This document shows, in pieces, positions 2,745 to 57,295 of a DNA stretch of 63,923 bases; within the stretch, counting starts at the first letter, position 1, and the number at the start of each line of letters is the position of its first letter. The DNA lies in contig JAJRPO010000016.1 in NCBI GenBank assembly GCA_024280735.1, positions 1-63,923 on the forward strand. Direction: 5' to 3'. The position numbers and the translations under genes are program-made. The DNA is from Alphaproteobacteria bacterium (lineage in GTDB: Bacteria; Pseudomonadota; Alphaproteobacteria; Rhodobacterales; Rhodobacteraceae). The notes below the pieces were generated by a model, which did no database searches, was not told the origin of the DNA, and worked only from the letters and a program-made list of their open reading frames with translations.

Positions 2745-3827
2745 ATGGACGGTTTGGACGATCTTAAGGCGAAATATTTAGGCGGGATTTCTGCGGCCAC
2801 GGATGAGGCCACGCTGGAAGACTTGCGTCTGGCCGCCGTCGGCAAAAAGGGCGAGGTCGCGTTGATGATGCGCGGGCTTGGCAAGATGAGCCCGGAAGAA
2901 CGCCAAGTGGCGGGGCCGGCGTTCAATGCTTTGAAGAACGAGATCAACAGCGCTTTGGCCGCGAAAAAGGCTGGCTTGGCCGATGCGGCGCTGAACGAGC
3001 GGTTGCAGTCGGAGTGGATCGACGTGTCGCTGGCGGGGCGTCCGCGTCGTGAGGGGTCGATTCATCCGGTTTCGCAAGTCACCGAGGAAGTCGTTGCGAT
3101 TTTTGCCGACCTTGGGTTTTCGGTGGCCGAGGGGCCGCAAATCGAAAGCGATTATTACAATTTCGACGCTTTGAATATCGCGCCGGAACATCCTGCCCGT
3201 CAGGAACATGATACATTCTACATGCACCGTGACGCGGGTGACGACCGCCCGCCGCATGTGTTGCGCACTCACACCAGTCCTGTGCAAATCCGCCATATGG
3301 AAAAACACGGTGTGCCCTGCCGGATCATCTGTCCGGGGCGGGTTTATCGTGCGGATTACGACCAGACCCACACGCCGATGTTCCATCAGTATGAGGGGCT
3401 TTGCATCGACAAAGACGTCAGCATGGCCAATCTGAAATGGGTGCTGGAAGAATTCTGCCGCGCGTTCTTCGGCATTGACGACATCGAGCTGCGCTTCCGC
3501 GCCTCGCATTTCCCGTTCACCGAACCCTCTGCCGAGGTGGATATCCGCTGTTCATGGGACAAGGGCCAGTTGAAACTCGGCGAGGGCGACGACTGGATGG
3601 AAATCCTCGGCTCCGGCATGGTGCACCCCAAGGTTCTGTCGGCGGCGGGGGTCGATCCGGAGGTCTATCAGGGCTTCGCCTTTGGCATGGGGATTGATCG
3701 GATCGCGATGCTGAAATACGGCATCCCAGATTTGCGCGCCTTCTTTGACAGCGATCTTCGCTGGCTGCGGCACTATGGATTTTCGGCGCTGGATATGCCG
3801 AATATGCATGGGGGGATTAGTGGGTGA
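2745..3827 (+). CDS. pheS: Phenylalanine--tRNA ligase alpha subunit
   Basis: 360 residues, full-length PheS. The N-terminal coiled-coil (1-90) is followed by the class II synthetase core: motif 2 region [20 protein letters not shown], the [17 protein letters not shown] segment, and motif 3 [18 protein letters not shown] near the C-terminus. It forms the alpha2beta2 enzyme with PheT. AAGGAATGGTGTC precedes the ATG. The stop codon overlaps the GTG start of the next gene by four bases (GTGA), an unusual coupling because pheT normally follows directly. Confidence 0.98.
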
Positions 3828-4318
3828 GTAAGATCACCAGAAAAGACATAAAGAGTGCTCTCAAGGAATTTGATGGCCAAAAACACGATTGTATTGATGT
3901 TCACTATACGACAAACCAGACAGCTTCCGAAACACACAGGTTGAGCGTTTTCGGTTATCTTGAGGACAAAGGTTTTGTTGTCTTGAAAAATCAACGTAAT
4001 TTCTTAGATGGGTACGGGCTACCTCCAGATGGCCAAGATAGATTAATTACGCATGAGAAAGTCTATCGTATAACAGCACTGGGCAGAAATTTTTCTCGCA
4101 GCTTTATTTTTAAGGCTTTTCAGAATGTGATCGGAAATATTCCAACAATAGTTATTGCCGTAGGTATCGGCGTAGCAATTAACCTATTGTCAGCGCTCTT
4201 TCAAAAAAGGATAGATTCGCAGCATATTCCTCCTCCCACTCTTGGCCAAGAAGACACCTCGCTCCCTACCGTCTCCCAGCCTGCACATAAACGTCCCCCC
4301 GTTCCCGCTTCCCAATAG
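3824..4318 (+). CDS. Hypothetical protein with one C-terminal membrane segment
   Basis: 164 residues, not recognised. The soluble N-terminal part (1-95) has a mixed alpha/beta pattern with [11 protein letters not shown], reminiscent of the wing end of small winged-helix domains. A single membrane helix follows at about 104-126 ([21 protein letters not shown]), then a short proline-rich tail. It starts with GTG overlapping the pheS stop (GTGA), so translation is probably coupled to pheS. It is visibly more AT-rich than pheS, and its last 53 bases overlap the 3' end of the opposing toxin gene. It may have arrived with the toxin-antitoxin module. Confidence 0.6.
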
Positions 4319-4547
4319 CGATCACCACCACCACAATCTCCCGGTCCCGCACTTCATAAACCAGCCGATAGCCCGACTGGCGCAGCTTGATTTTGTAGCG
4401 GTTCTGTACCCCGTGCAGACGCGATGCCGGAACGCGCGGCTGCTCCAATCGTTCCACCAGTTTCTTTTTCAATTGTCGTTGGATTGTTACCCCCAGCTTG
4501 CGCCATTCTTTGGTGGCGGAGGGCAGGAATTCCAGCTTATAGGTCAT
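4266..4547 (-). CDS. RelE/ParE-superfamily toxin
   Basis: 93 residues, basic. The pattern is that of RelE: MTYKLEFLPSATKEWRKL with the N-terminal strand and helix, a central helix KKLVERLEQ, then RLHGVQNRYKIKLRQSGYRLVYEV, where the Arg and Tyr residues of the ribosome-dependent mRNA interferase site lie, and [15 protein letters not shown] at the end. Such toxins cleave mRNA in the ribosomal A site. The start overlaps the antitoxin's 3' end by 11 bases, as in relBE. The 3' end overlaps the opposing hypothetical gene. The module sits between pheS and pheT. Confidence 0.88.
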   Translation of the reverse strand: MTYKLEFLPSATKEWRKLGVTIQRQLKKKLVERLEQPRVPASRLHGVQNRYKIKLRQSGYRLVYEVRDREIVVVVIAIGKRERGDVYVQAGRR

Positions 4548-4785
4548 TTATGTCCACAGGGACGCCAACCTCACCCATCCGCGCATCGGCTATCGCGTTA
4601 AGTTCCATGTCTTCCAGCATTTCCACCATCGCCTGATATTCCGAGGCGGGAACGCAATAGAACGCGGGTTCATTGCGGTTTAGGATGGCCACGGCAGCAC
4701 CTCCGCCTGCGGCGACGGTTCCCATGGGGTTTTTCTTTAGTTCGGTGACGCTGGCGGTGGTGCTGGCGAATAGGGCGTGGGGCAT
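4537..4785 (-). CDS. Phd/YefM-RelB type antitoxin
   Basis: 82 residues. The N-terminal part ASTTASVTELKKNPMGTVAA matches the Phd/YefM DNA-binding fold (strand followed by 'S.TELK.NP'), and the middle VAILNRNEPAFYCVPASEYQ is the characteristic 'vl..n..p..yvvp...ye' strand pair. The acidic C-terminal part EMLEDMELNAIADARMGE should wrap the toxin. Antitoxins of this type repress their own promoter, and a 13-bp-arm palindrome overlaps the predicted promoter just upstream. The toxin gene follows with an 11-base overlap. Confidence 0.88.
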   Translation of the reverse strand: MPHALFASTTASVTELKKNPMGTVAAGGGAAVAILNRNEPAFYCVPASEYQAMVEMLEDMELNAIADARMGEVGVPVDINDL

Positions 4786-4794
4786 TGGGTGACT

Positions 4795-4838
4795 CCTTTA
4801 AGAGTGCCTTTAATAGCACCCTTAAAGGCTCTTGTCAA
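4795..4838 (-). promoter_or_regulatory. Promoter and palindromic operator of the toxin-antitoxin module
   Basis: On the minus strand TTGACA (4838-4833), a 17-base spacer and TATTAA (4815-4810) form a near-consensus promoter. CCTTTAAGAGTGC (4795-4807) and GCACCCTTAAAGG (4816-4828) are inverted repeats matching at 12 of 13 positions with an 8-base centre, covering the -10 and the spacer. This is the expected layout for autorepression by the antitoxin-toxin complex. Confidence 0.8.
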
Positions 4839-4945
4839 AATTGATAGGAGTTTACCACCACCCGCCGAGCTTTTTCTCTGCTTGGCCTTTTATTTAATGC
4901 CTATTTGCGATACGCGGAACAAAGAAAAATACGGATGCTGGACAG

Positions 4946-7360
4946 ATGAAATTCACACTCTCTTGGCTTAAAGCCCACCTCGACACTGATGCGCCTTTGG
5001 ATGACATCTTGTATGCGCTGACCGACCTCGGTCTGGAAGTTGAGGAGGTTGTCAATCCGATGGACACGCTGGCCGCCTTTACCGTGGCTTATGTGAAGTC
5101 TACAGAAAAGCACCCCGATGCGGATCGCCTGAATGTGTGTCAGGTGGAAACCGGCAAAGGTGTGCAGCAAATCATTTGCGGTGCGCCAAATGCGCGGGCG
5201 GGAATTTATGTGGTTTTGGCCAGTCCGGGGGTGTACGTGCCGGGCATTGATACCACCATTGGCGTTGGCAAAATTCGCGGGATCGAGAGCTTTGGCATGA
5301 TGGCGTCAGAGCGTGAGATGGAATTGTCGGACGAGCATGACGGTATTATCGAGCTGAAGGGGGAGCCGGAGATCGGCTCGCGTTTTGTCGATTATTTGAT
5401 GACGCACAGCCCCGACAAGATCGACCCGATGATTGATATTGCGATCACCCCGAACCGCCCTGATGCGCTGGGCGTTCGCGGGATTGCGCGCGATTTGGCG
5501 GCGCGGGGGATTGGCAGGTTGAAGCCGATGCCTGTGGCGGATGTGAAGGGGACGTTCACGTCTGATATCAAAGTTACGATTGACGCGGATGTACTGGCAA
5601 AGGGCTGTCCATTGTTCACGGGGCGGCTGATCAAGGGCGTCAAGAACGGGCCTAGCCCTGCTTGGTTGCAGGCGCGGCTCAAGGCGATTGGGTTGCGGCC
5701 CATCTCGACCCTCGTGGATATTACCAATCTGTTTACCTTTGAATATAACCGTCCGCTGCATGTGTTTGATGCGGATAAAGTGGCGGGTGATTTACGGGTG
5801 CATTTCGCTGCGGGTGGCGAGAGCTTGCAAGCGCTAGACGAGAAAGAATATTCCTTTGACGCGGGCATGATGGCGATTTCCGATGATAACGGGGTGGAAA
5901 GCATCGCGGGTATCATGGGCGGGATGCCAACGGGGTGTTCCGAGGACACGGTCAATGTGTTTGTCGAGAGCGCCTATTGGGATCCGATCACCATTGCCAA
6001 GGCTGGCCGCAAGTTGAAGATCAACTCAGACGCGCGTTATCGGTTTGAGCGGGGGATTGATCCGGCGTTTACGCAGGGCGGTCTGGATTTGGCAGTCGCG
6101 TTGATACTGGAACTCTGCGGGGGTGAAGCGTCGGAGATGGTTGTTGCTGGCGCTGTGCCGGATGTATCGCGCCAGTATAAGCTGGACACGGACCGCGTGC
6201 AGTCTTTGGTGGGAATGACCATTGCAGCAAGTGAACAGGTAGCAACACTGGAAGCACTGGGGTTTGTGGTTGATGGCGACCAAGTGACGCCACCCTCATG
6301 GCGCCCTGACGTTTTGGGGTCTGCGGATTTGGTGGAAGAAATCGCGCGCGTCGCATCGATGACCAAACTGGTTGGCGTGCCCTAGCCACGAAATTCTGTT
6401 GGCGTTGCCAAGCCAATCCTGACGCCGATGCAAAAGCGCGAAGCCATGGCGCGGCGCACGGTAGCGGCGTTAGGGTACAACGAATGTGTGACCTATTCCT
6501 TTATTGACCAGCCCAGTGCGGCGCTGTTTGGCGGCGGCACGGATGCGGTGAAAATTGGCAACCCGATTTCAAATGACTTGAGCCACATGCGGCCCTCGCT
6601 GTTGCCCGGCCTGTTGGCCGCAGCAGCGCGCAATCAGGCGCGTGGATTTGCGGATATGGCGTTGTTTGAGGTTGGCCCTGTGTTCCATGGCGGGGAGCCG
6701 GATGAGCAAGAAGTGATCGCTACCGGCCTGTTGATTGGCTTTACCGGCCCGCGCGATCCCCATGGTGCGCGGCGTGCAGTTGACACATTTGATGCCAAAG
6801 CGGATGCAGAGGCGGTTTTGTCGGCCATTGGCGCGCCGGCCAAACTGATGGTATTGCGCGATGTGAACAATTGGTGGCATCCGGGGCGCTCGGGTAAATT
6901 ATCGCTGGGGCCGAAAAATGTGCTGGCTGGTTTTGGTGAAATCCACCCTAAAGTGCTGAAAGAGATGGGTGTGAAGGGTCCGGCGGTCGCCTTTGCTGTG
7001 CATATAGCAAAACCACCCTTTCCCAAGAAAAAGACATCAACCCGACCGGCTTTGCAGATTTCGGATTTGCAGGCAGTGGACCGCGATTTCGCTTTTGTTG
7101 TGGACGCGCGGGTCGAGGCGTTGACCTTGCTAAATGCAGCCAAAGGGGCCGATAAGGCGTTAATCACGGATGCGTCTGTGTTTGACCAATTTGGCGGTGA
7201 CAAAGCCGAAGCACAGATGGGCGTGGGCAAAAAATCCGTCGCCATCACAGTGCGATTGCAGCCCAAGGATACGACCCTGACAGACAAGGATATCGAGGCG
7301 GTTTCAGCCAAGATCATTGCCAAGGTCGAGAAAGCTGTTGGCGGTGTATTGCGCGGTTAG
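4946..7360 (+). pseudogene. pheT: Phenylalanine--tRNA ligase beta subunit with an in-frame TAG at codon 480
   Basis: One continuous frame of 805 codons that matches full-length PheT except for TAG at 6383-6385. Before it: the tRNA-binding OB domain (about 40-150), the B3/B4 editing region and B5, ending TKLVGVP. After it: PRNSVGVAKPILTPMQKREA, the catalytic-like B6/B7 core with YNECVTYSFID, and the C-terminal FDX-ACB anticodon-binding domain from about residue 705. The frame is not shifted, and no decay is seen on either side. Close relatives have Leu or Met at the amber position, so TTG to TAG is one simple route. pheT is essential and no second copy is seen here. Possible explanations are a sequencing error, amber readthrough, or two separately translated halves (next ATG at 6428). 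Its natural stop is also TAG. Confidence 0.9.
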
Positions 7361-55579: not shown

Positions 55580-56247
55580 ATGTCGTCGTGCAAAACATCA
55601 AACGCGCCGACGTGGACGTAATCGCAGGCCTTGCCAAATGCGGCGTGGCAACGGTGCATGAGGCGCAGGGCCGCAAAGGCTTGCTCGCCGATTATATGCG
55701 GCCCATTTACAGCGGCGCGCGGGTGGCCGGTTCTGCTGTCACCATCCTTGCGCCGCCCTGCGATAACTGGATGCTGCATGTGGCGATTGAGCAATTGCAA
55801 GCGGGGGATTTGCTGGTTCTGGGCACCACCTCGCCGTCCAACGCGGGGTATTTTGGCGATCTATTGGCGACCTCGGCGATGGCGCGGGGCTGCAAGGGGT
55901 TGATCATTGACGCGGGCGTGCGCGATGTACGGGACTTGACGGAAATGGGATTTCCGGTTTGGTCCAATGCGGTGTTCGCGCAGGGCACAATTAAGGAAAC
56001 CCTTGGCTCGGTCAACGTACCTATTACCTGTGCTGGCGCGCAGATAAATGCGGGGGATGTTATTGTTGCGGATGATGATGGCGTGTGTGTTGTCTGCCGC
56101 GAAGAGGCGGCGGATGTGTTGGCTAAAGCGCAAGCGCGGGAAGCCAATGAAGCAGATAAACGCGCGCGGTTTAAAGCGGGGGAACTTGGCCTTGATATGT
56201 ATGACATGCGCGGGCGCTTGGCGGCCAAAGGTTTGAAATATGTCTGA
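55576..56247 (+). CDS. ligK: 4-carboxy-4-hydroxy-2-oxoadipate aldolase / oxaloacetate decarboxylase
   Basis: 223 residues, RraA-like fold (also called GalC or LigK). [60 protein letters not shown] with the catalytic Arg/Asp, and [20 protein letters not shown]. It cleaves the galB product into pyruvate and oxaloacetate and can decarboxylate oxaloacetate. Overlaps galB by four and galD by eight bases. Confidence 0.95.
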
Positions 56248-57295
56248 CAGCGTGCGCTGCATGTGGATGCGGGGGGGCACCTCCAAGGGGGGGTATTTTC
56301 TGGCGGAGGACCTGCCGCAGGATAGGGGCGCGCGCGATGCCTTTTTGCTAAGCGTTATGGGATCGCCGGACCCGCGCCAGATTGATGGCATGGGCGGGGC
56401 GGACCCTCTGACCTCTAAAGTTGCCATAGTTAGCAAGTCGCAAAGCGGCGCGGATGTGGATTACCTGTTTTTGCAGGTGGGCGTGGATAAGCCGCTGGTC
56501 AGTGACATGCAGAATTGCGGGAATATTCTGGCGGGCGTTGGCCCTTTTGCAATTGAACGCGGGCTTGTGGCGGTGACCGGCGACAGCACCGATGTTGTGA
56601 TTCATATGCTGAACACCGGACAGACGGCGACGGCAACGCTGCAAACGCCTAACGGCAAGATCAGTTATTTGGGCGACACCGCGATTGACGGGGTGCCCGG
56701 CACCGCCGCCCCCGTGGCGATTGCGTTTCAGGATAGCGCCGGTTCCAGTTGCGGGGCGCTGCTGCCCACGGGAAACGCGCGCGATGTGATTGACGGTATC
56801 GAGGTAACCTTGATCGACGACGGCATGCCTTGCGTGGTGATATGTGGCGTGGATATGGGGATCACTGGCAATGAGACCCGCGAGGAATTGTAGGCCAATG
56901 ACGCCCTGCGCGCGCGGCTTGAGGCCATCCGCCTACAAGCGGGGCCGCTGATGAACCTTGGCGATGTTGCGCAGAAAACCATCCCGAAAATGACCATGGT
57001 CAGCCCTGCGCAGCACGGTGGCACCATATCGACCCGCACGTTTATTCCACACCGTTGCCATGCCTCGATCGGGGTGCTTGGCGCGGTTTCTGTGGCGACG
57101 GCTTGCCTGACTACGGGGTCCGTTGCCGCCGATATGGCAGTGATTCCGGCGGGTAATTCCAAGGTCCTGCGGATTGAACACCCGATTGGCAACGCGCCTA
57201 TACTGGCGACGCTGGCAGCGGATGGCACAATTGCCAGCGCGGCGGTCATTCGCACTGCACGTAAATTATTTGACGGGGAGGTATATGCCCGATGA
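56240..57295 (+). pseudogene. galD: 4-oxalomesaconate tautomerase with an in-frame TAG at codon 218
   Basis: PrpF-family protein (GalD/LigU); one frame of 352 codons, intact except for TAG at 56891-56893. Before it: MRGGTSKGGYFLAEDLPQDR, the MQNCGNILAGVGPFAIERGL region with the catalytic Cys, GSSCGALLPTGNARDVIDGI and GITGNETREEL. After it: ANDALRARLEAIRLQAGPLM, NLGDVAQKTIPKMTMVSPAQ and a full second half. The two parts are in the same frame with 19 open codons between the stop and the next ATG. The family usually has Glu or Asp there (GAG to TAG fits). Tautomerises 4-oxalomesaconate. Neighbours overlap at both ends (8 and 4 bases), so a working protein would be expected. Confidence 0.9.

Follow-up and report, generated by a model that had tools for sequence, protein, structure and literature searches.

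Phenylalanyl-tRNA synthetase (PheRS) is essential, and so is pheT, the gene of its beta subunit. The pheT copy considered here carries an in-frame amber codon, which raises the question of whether the stop belongs to the living organism or to its assembled sequence. The gene lies near the start of the window, by which we mean the whole stretch of DNA analysed (63,923 nucleotides), in a draft genome that is 70.93% complete and comprises 2,631,577 bases on 88 contigs. The nearest named relatives of this genome are Rhodobacteraceae and Amylibacter drafts, and the source organism is, as judged by sequence, an Amylibacter-like member of the Rhodobacteraceae. The features on which the argument turns are as follows.

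2745-3827, + strand: pheS, phenylalanyl-tRNA synthetase alpha subunit, intact (open reading frame; TIGR00468 match at 2865-3773)
4946-6382, + strand: pheT, part before the stop, with tRNA-binding, B3/4 and B5 domains (open reading frame, Pfam)
6383-6385, + strand: in-frame TAG, pheT codon 480, absent from the relatives examined
6386-7360, + strand: pheT, part after the stop, with CLM and FDX-ACB domains and the terminator TAG at 7358-7360 (open reading frame, Pfam)

Starting from the ATG at 4946, the pheT frame (4946-7360, + strand) consists of 479 sense codons, the TAG at codon 480, 324 further sense codons and the terminator, and is unbroken apart from codon 480, as an earlier sequence-only reading of this DNA had reported. 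When the stop is counted as a residue, residues 1-803 matched the bacterial PheT profile TIGR00472 over its full length (positions 1-798 of 798), scoring 652.2 bits where the curated cut-off is 402.65 bits; unlike a regular bacterial PheT, the gene has its frame interrupted by this TAG. Pfam domains tRNA_bind, B3_4 and B5 (residues 412-469) were found 5′ of the stop, and CLM (starting at residue 11 of the part after the stop) and FDX-ACB 3′ of it, in line with the further claim that both flanks are intact PheT with a complete C-terminal FDX-ACB domain. Since B5 ends before the stop and CLM begins after it, the stop sits in the B5/CLM linker. The companion gene pheS showed no stop within its TIGR00468 match (2865-3773) and was the sole pheS match in the source draft genome.

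A search of 61 genomes returned a pheT match in 57, and the only internal stop among these was that of the source genome itself (1/57), the remaining 56 all being free of one. The gene was present in 30 of 33 genomes of the genus and in all 22 of its high-quality genomes. Within the 120-residue stretch around the site, a stop occurred at one of 140 loci, a set into which several genomes were entered twice, and this locus was the source copy (L032). The residue at the site of codon 480 was Leu (23) or Met (6) at all 29 genus loci examined; at all 80 loci of a second set of relatives it was Leu (58), Met (21) or, once, Phe, the two sets overlapping in some genomes; it was variable in more distant members of the class. 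In the two nearest relatives, G010 and G015, whose pheT genes are 84% and 83% identical to that of the window, the gene runs uninterrupted across the site with Leu at this position. Viral contigs scanned for the pheT stop site gave no match. The change is thus absent from related genomes, as expected of a sequencing or assembly error.

Selection was compared on the two sides of the stop. Against G010, dN/dS was 0.049 before the stop and 0.043 after it, and against G015 the values were 0.060 and 0.040, ratios that are rough because dS is near saturation. Changes specific to the lineage of the window numbered 49 synonymous and 8 non-synonymous before the stop, and 53 synonymous and 5 non-synonymous after it; at columns otherwise invariant among 27 genus sequences, the window pheT showed a single unique change. 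By these substitution patterns, both parts of pheT are under the same strong purifying selection, in agreement with the earlier claim that the gene shows no decay. It follows that the stop is either very recent or absent from the cells. An old pseudogene is ruled out by dN/dS being equal across the stop, a test to which a very recent break would be invisible.

Sequence comparison leads us to regard the pheT TAG as probably (at roughly 0.8) an error in a single base, introduced by sequencing, assembly or consensus calling, a reading favoured because PheRS is essential and one copy of pheT was found. The TAG would have come from a base-call or consensus error, or from a rare nonsense variant taken as the assembler's path, in which case a dead variant would have been sampled from a mixed population; in the cells, pheT would be an ordinary gene encoding one chain of about 804 residues. 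We infer that the original reads would carry a sense codon at 6383-6385, and the TAG is most likely no fixed feature of the living organism's pheT. With regard to copy number, the sequence-only reading had proposed a genome search for a second pheT; profile search of the 70.93%-complete source draft yielded one match each for pheT and pheS and no second copy of either, the pheT match being the interrupted copy. Given this completeness, a further pheT copy could lie in the missing part. Of the three explanations listed in that reading, error fits best, and readthrough and a split enzyme find little in their favour; two options absent from its list are that a mixed population contributed a real nonsense variant and that a functional pheT lies in the 29% of the genome left unassembled.

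The isolated stop, seen in the consensus sequence of an otherwise intact and selected gene of one draft, resembles the single-base errors of draft and metagenome assemblies. A comparable case was found in another draft of the genus, in which pheS (locus L365, G029:C193:5500-7234) carries an in-frame TAA six codons before the contig end; this stop is unrelated to that of the window pheT, and shows that such stops do enter drafts of the genus. Against an error, the pheT stop itself lies ~6.4 kb from the contig start, away from the ends where errors gather. At that start, bases 1-140 of the window recur as exact copies of 137-140 bases at the ends of contigs C6, C24, C67 and C82 and as a near-exact copy (111 bases, 98%) at contig C34. 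This is, by its distribution, apparently a dispersed repeat where the assembly broke, and we take the shared contig ends of 137-140 bases as a signature of graph assembly from short reads.

In-frame stops were next counted elsewhere in the assembly. Five, pheT included, were found in 622,063 bases of the source genome and three in G003 and G022, two relatives each consisting of one contig, from which 800,000 bases together were covered, an excess that is not significant (P = 0.24); with pheT set aside because it was the starting point of the analysis, the count is 4 versus 3. A generally error-rich assembly is therefore not demonstrated. If all five stops were random errors, the implied rate would be about 3 per 10,000 bases, a rate that we consider high for well-covered short-read data. 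These counts are rough. A codon-score screen returned 42 candidates in the source, 27 in G003 and 16 in G022, most of which were judged by eye to be gene junctions or antisense frames, and it missed pheT itself; nine of the 85, plus one candidate from a homologue screen, were checked against Pfam, and of these, four of the five frames from the source and three of the five from the controls looked like one broken gene, the other three being gene junctions. Candidates outside the Pfam check include L184:3549, L185:9788, L192:11222, L194:714, L207:439, L209:16029 and several in G003 and G022. The homologue screen, covering 109 kb of the source, 98 kb of G003 and 70 kb of G022, gave as clear cases pheT and an AraC-type regulator in the source, none in G003 and one in G022.

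The other interrupted source genes encode a 4-oxalomesaconate tautomerase, a pyrimidine 5′-nucleotidase, the AraC-type regulator and a phage tape-measure protein, the last called a broken gene solely because two tail domains flank the stop. The first of these lies in the window:

56891-56893, + strand: in-frame TAG, the second on the contig, within the 4-oxalomesaconate tautomerase gene (56240-57295)

With this stop read through, the tautomerase matched an NCBIfam equivalog almost from end to end. In the single-contig relatives, the interrupted genes were photolyase-like (G003) and an ATPase inhibitor zeta subunit and an outer-membrane barrel (both G022); in-frame TAG sites in these relatives lie at L219:2884, L227:12319 and L234:3597. 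Relatives carry Glu (3) or Asp (6) at the tautomerase stop (n=9), Glu (10), Arg (7) or Lys (2) at the nucleotidase stop (n=19) and Glu at the regulator stop (14/14). Because the nearest relatives carry Glu there, the apparent change at three of the four interrupted source genes with homologues is of the G:C to T:A type (a post hoc P of about 0.02). We did not rely on this as an oxidation or mutator signature; pheT does not fit it, and mutY and mutM are both present with no stop in either. The predominance of TAG among the stops is near the expectation from codon make-up, TAG accounting for 47% of one-step stops.

The foremost alternative to an error is that the TAG is a real, recent amber allele and that the enzyme is supplied by basal readthrough, by an unrecovered suppressor tRNA or by a second PheT. 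We consider this unlikely. The essentiality of PheRS speaks against it, as does the release factor RF1 (prfA), which is intact in the source genome (490.8 bits, no stop, GGQ present), so that the loss or alteration of RF1 expected for natural amber suppression was not seen there. A search for an amber suppressor tRNA, which the sequence-only reading had also suggested, found no CUA anticodon among the 27 tRNAs detected in the 71%-complete source genome, nor among those found in G003 and G022; on the other side, the same incompleteness, with 27 tRNAs compared with 35 and 33 Rfam matches for the two single-contig relatives, leaves room for a tRNA or a gene copy that the draft did not recover. 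A change of code or a suppressor tRNA is accordingly unsupported by the CUA search in these three genomes and by the intact RF1. TAG terminates 15 of the 43 window genes counted, pheT included, and this usage, together with the intact RF1 and the lack of a CUA tRNA among those found, indicates that TAG is a working stop codon in the source organism. Two further observations favour a real allele: in-frame stops are similarly frequent in the two single-contig relatives, and the 100 bases 3′ of the stop fold somewhat better than shuffled sequences (z -1.99, 7/200), unlike those of the nearest relatives (z 0.20 and 0.29), a single marginal prediction to which we attach little weight. The restriction of the stop to one of the 57 genomes with pheT, in contrast, tells against it.

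According to Belinky et al. 2021 (PMC7918605), in-frame stops are widespread among bacterial genes that are intact in other respects and subject to purifying selection, which also lends the amber allele some plausibility, and the dN/dS of pheT, well under 1 before and after the stop, is like that of the cases described there. The rule stated in the same paper accepts only stops common to two or more genomes, so excluding sequencing errors; the pheT stop, seen in one genome where theirs occur in at least two, fails it. No title among the literature matches listed concerned a split or an amber pheT. It strikes us as quite improbable that living cells of an Amylibacter-like lineage have a real amber codon here, in their only pheT, and obtain enough PheRS through leaky readthrough, or through a restart at codon 495 that yields a two-chain beta subunit.

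A split PheT, in which a 479-residue N-terminal chain and a C-terminal chain initiated at the ATG at 6428 would form a working beta subunit, is very improbable. The proposed restart, put forward by the sequence-only reading, is the following.

6428-6430, + strand: ATG suggested as a restart; an ordinary internal Met codon (pairing, alignment, folding)

This ATG is codon 495 and lies 42 bases 3′ of the stop, near enough for re-initiation in principle, and the break falls in the B5/CLM linker, as if between two domains. Predicted Shine-Dalgarno pairing at the ATG, however, is +0.3 kcal/mol, where 35 gene starts of the window range from -9.5 to +1.6; only 3 of the 35 are weaker, so that a start signal is lacking, though not absolutely. 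In addition, the ATG falls inside the hairpin predicted 3′ of the stop, and it is not new, the corresponding Met being internal also in the two nearest relatives with intact pheT. The suggestion of a second chain starting near 6428 thus finds little in its favour. Aminoacyl-tRNA synthetases split into two chains are known, such as the LeuRS of Aquifex and the AlaRS of Nanoarchaeum. The pheT break resembles these in lying between two domains but differs in that the second part has no start signal of its own and follows in the same frame without a gap, and no stop-broken pheT was found among the related genomes searched.

Programmed readthrough or recoding of the UAG at codon 480 deserves no more credence than a split enzyme. 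The weak hairpin predicted downstream would suit it, but its signal is absent from the two nearest relatives, the stop is conserved in none of the relatives, and pheT itself terminates with TAG; as for readthrough in general, which had been listed among the possible explanations, the unconserved stop, the intact RF1 and the failure to find a suppressor tRNA in the recovered genome leave little of it. That TAG is a sense codon in the source organism, an idea to which the further in-frame TAGs of the genome might point, is already contradicted by the present results and has next to no probability, since RF1 is intact, no CUA tRNA was found, 15/43 counted window genes end in TAG, TAA is also among the in-frame stops, and the residues of relatives differ from site to site (Leu/Met for pheT, Glu/Asp for the tautomerase and Glu for the regulator).

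An essential synthetase subunit surviving on readthrough or as two chains would, if true, be a striking case; the biological claim of an amber pheT is nevertheless probably without importance. What the error reading offers is a caution, namely that a clean in-frame stop at a domain boundary can mimic recoding or a split enzyme when it interrupts an essential gene in a draft, and that comparison with relatives reveals such a stop as private to one assembly.

Finally, the arrangement of the two PheRS genes varies. In the window, pheS and pheT are separated by about 1.1 kb (3824-4945), which contains three features.

3824-4318: open reading frame with no Pfam match
4266-4547, - strand: ParE-like toxin (Pfam)
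4537-4785, - strand: Phd/YefM-like antitoxin (just under the Pfam cut-off)

The two genes adjoin directly in G010 and G015, and at the 86 loci that carry both, the distance between them runs from -1 to 1,303 bases, a spread that makes the pheS-pheT interval look like an insertion hotspot. In G006, another genome of the genus, the profile is matched by two overlapping pheT pieces (1-683 and 321-798), which may represent either two copies of the gene or a mixed bin. Upstream of pheT in the same genome, the first 35 bases of the gene are matched again (89%) at G006:C137:2736-2770, a repeat that looks, from its sequence, as if the start of pheT had been duplicated by an insertion.
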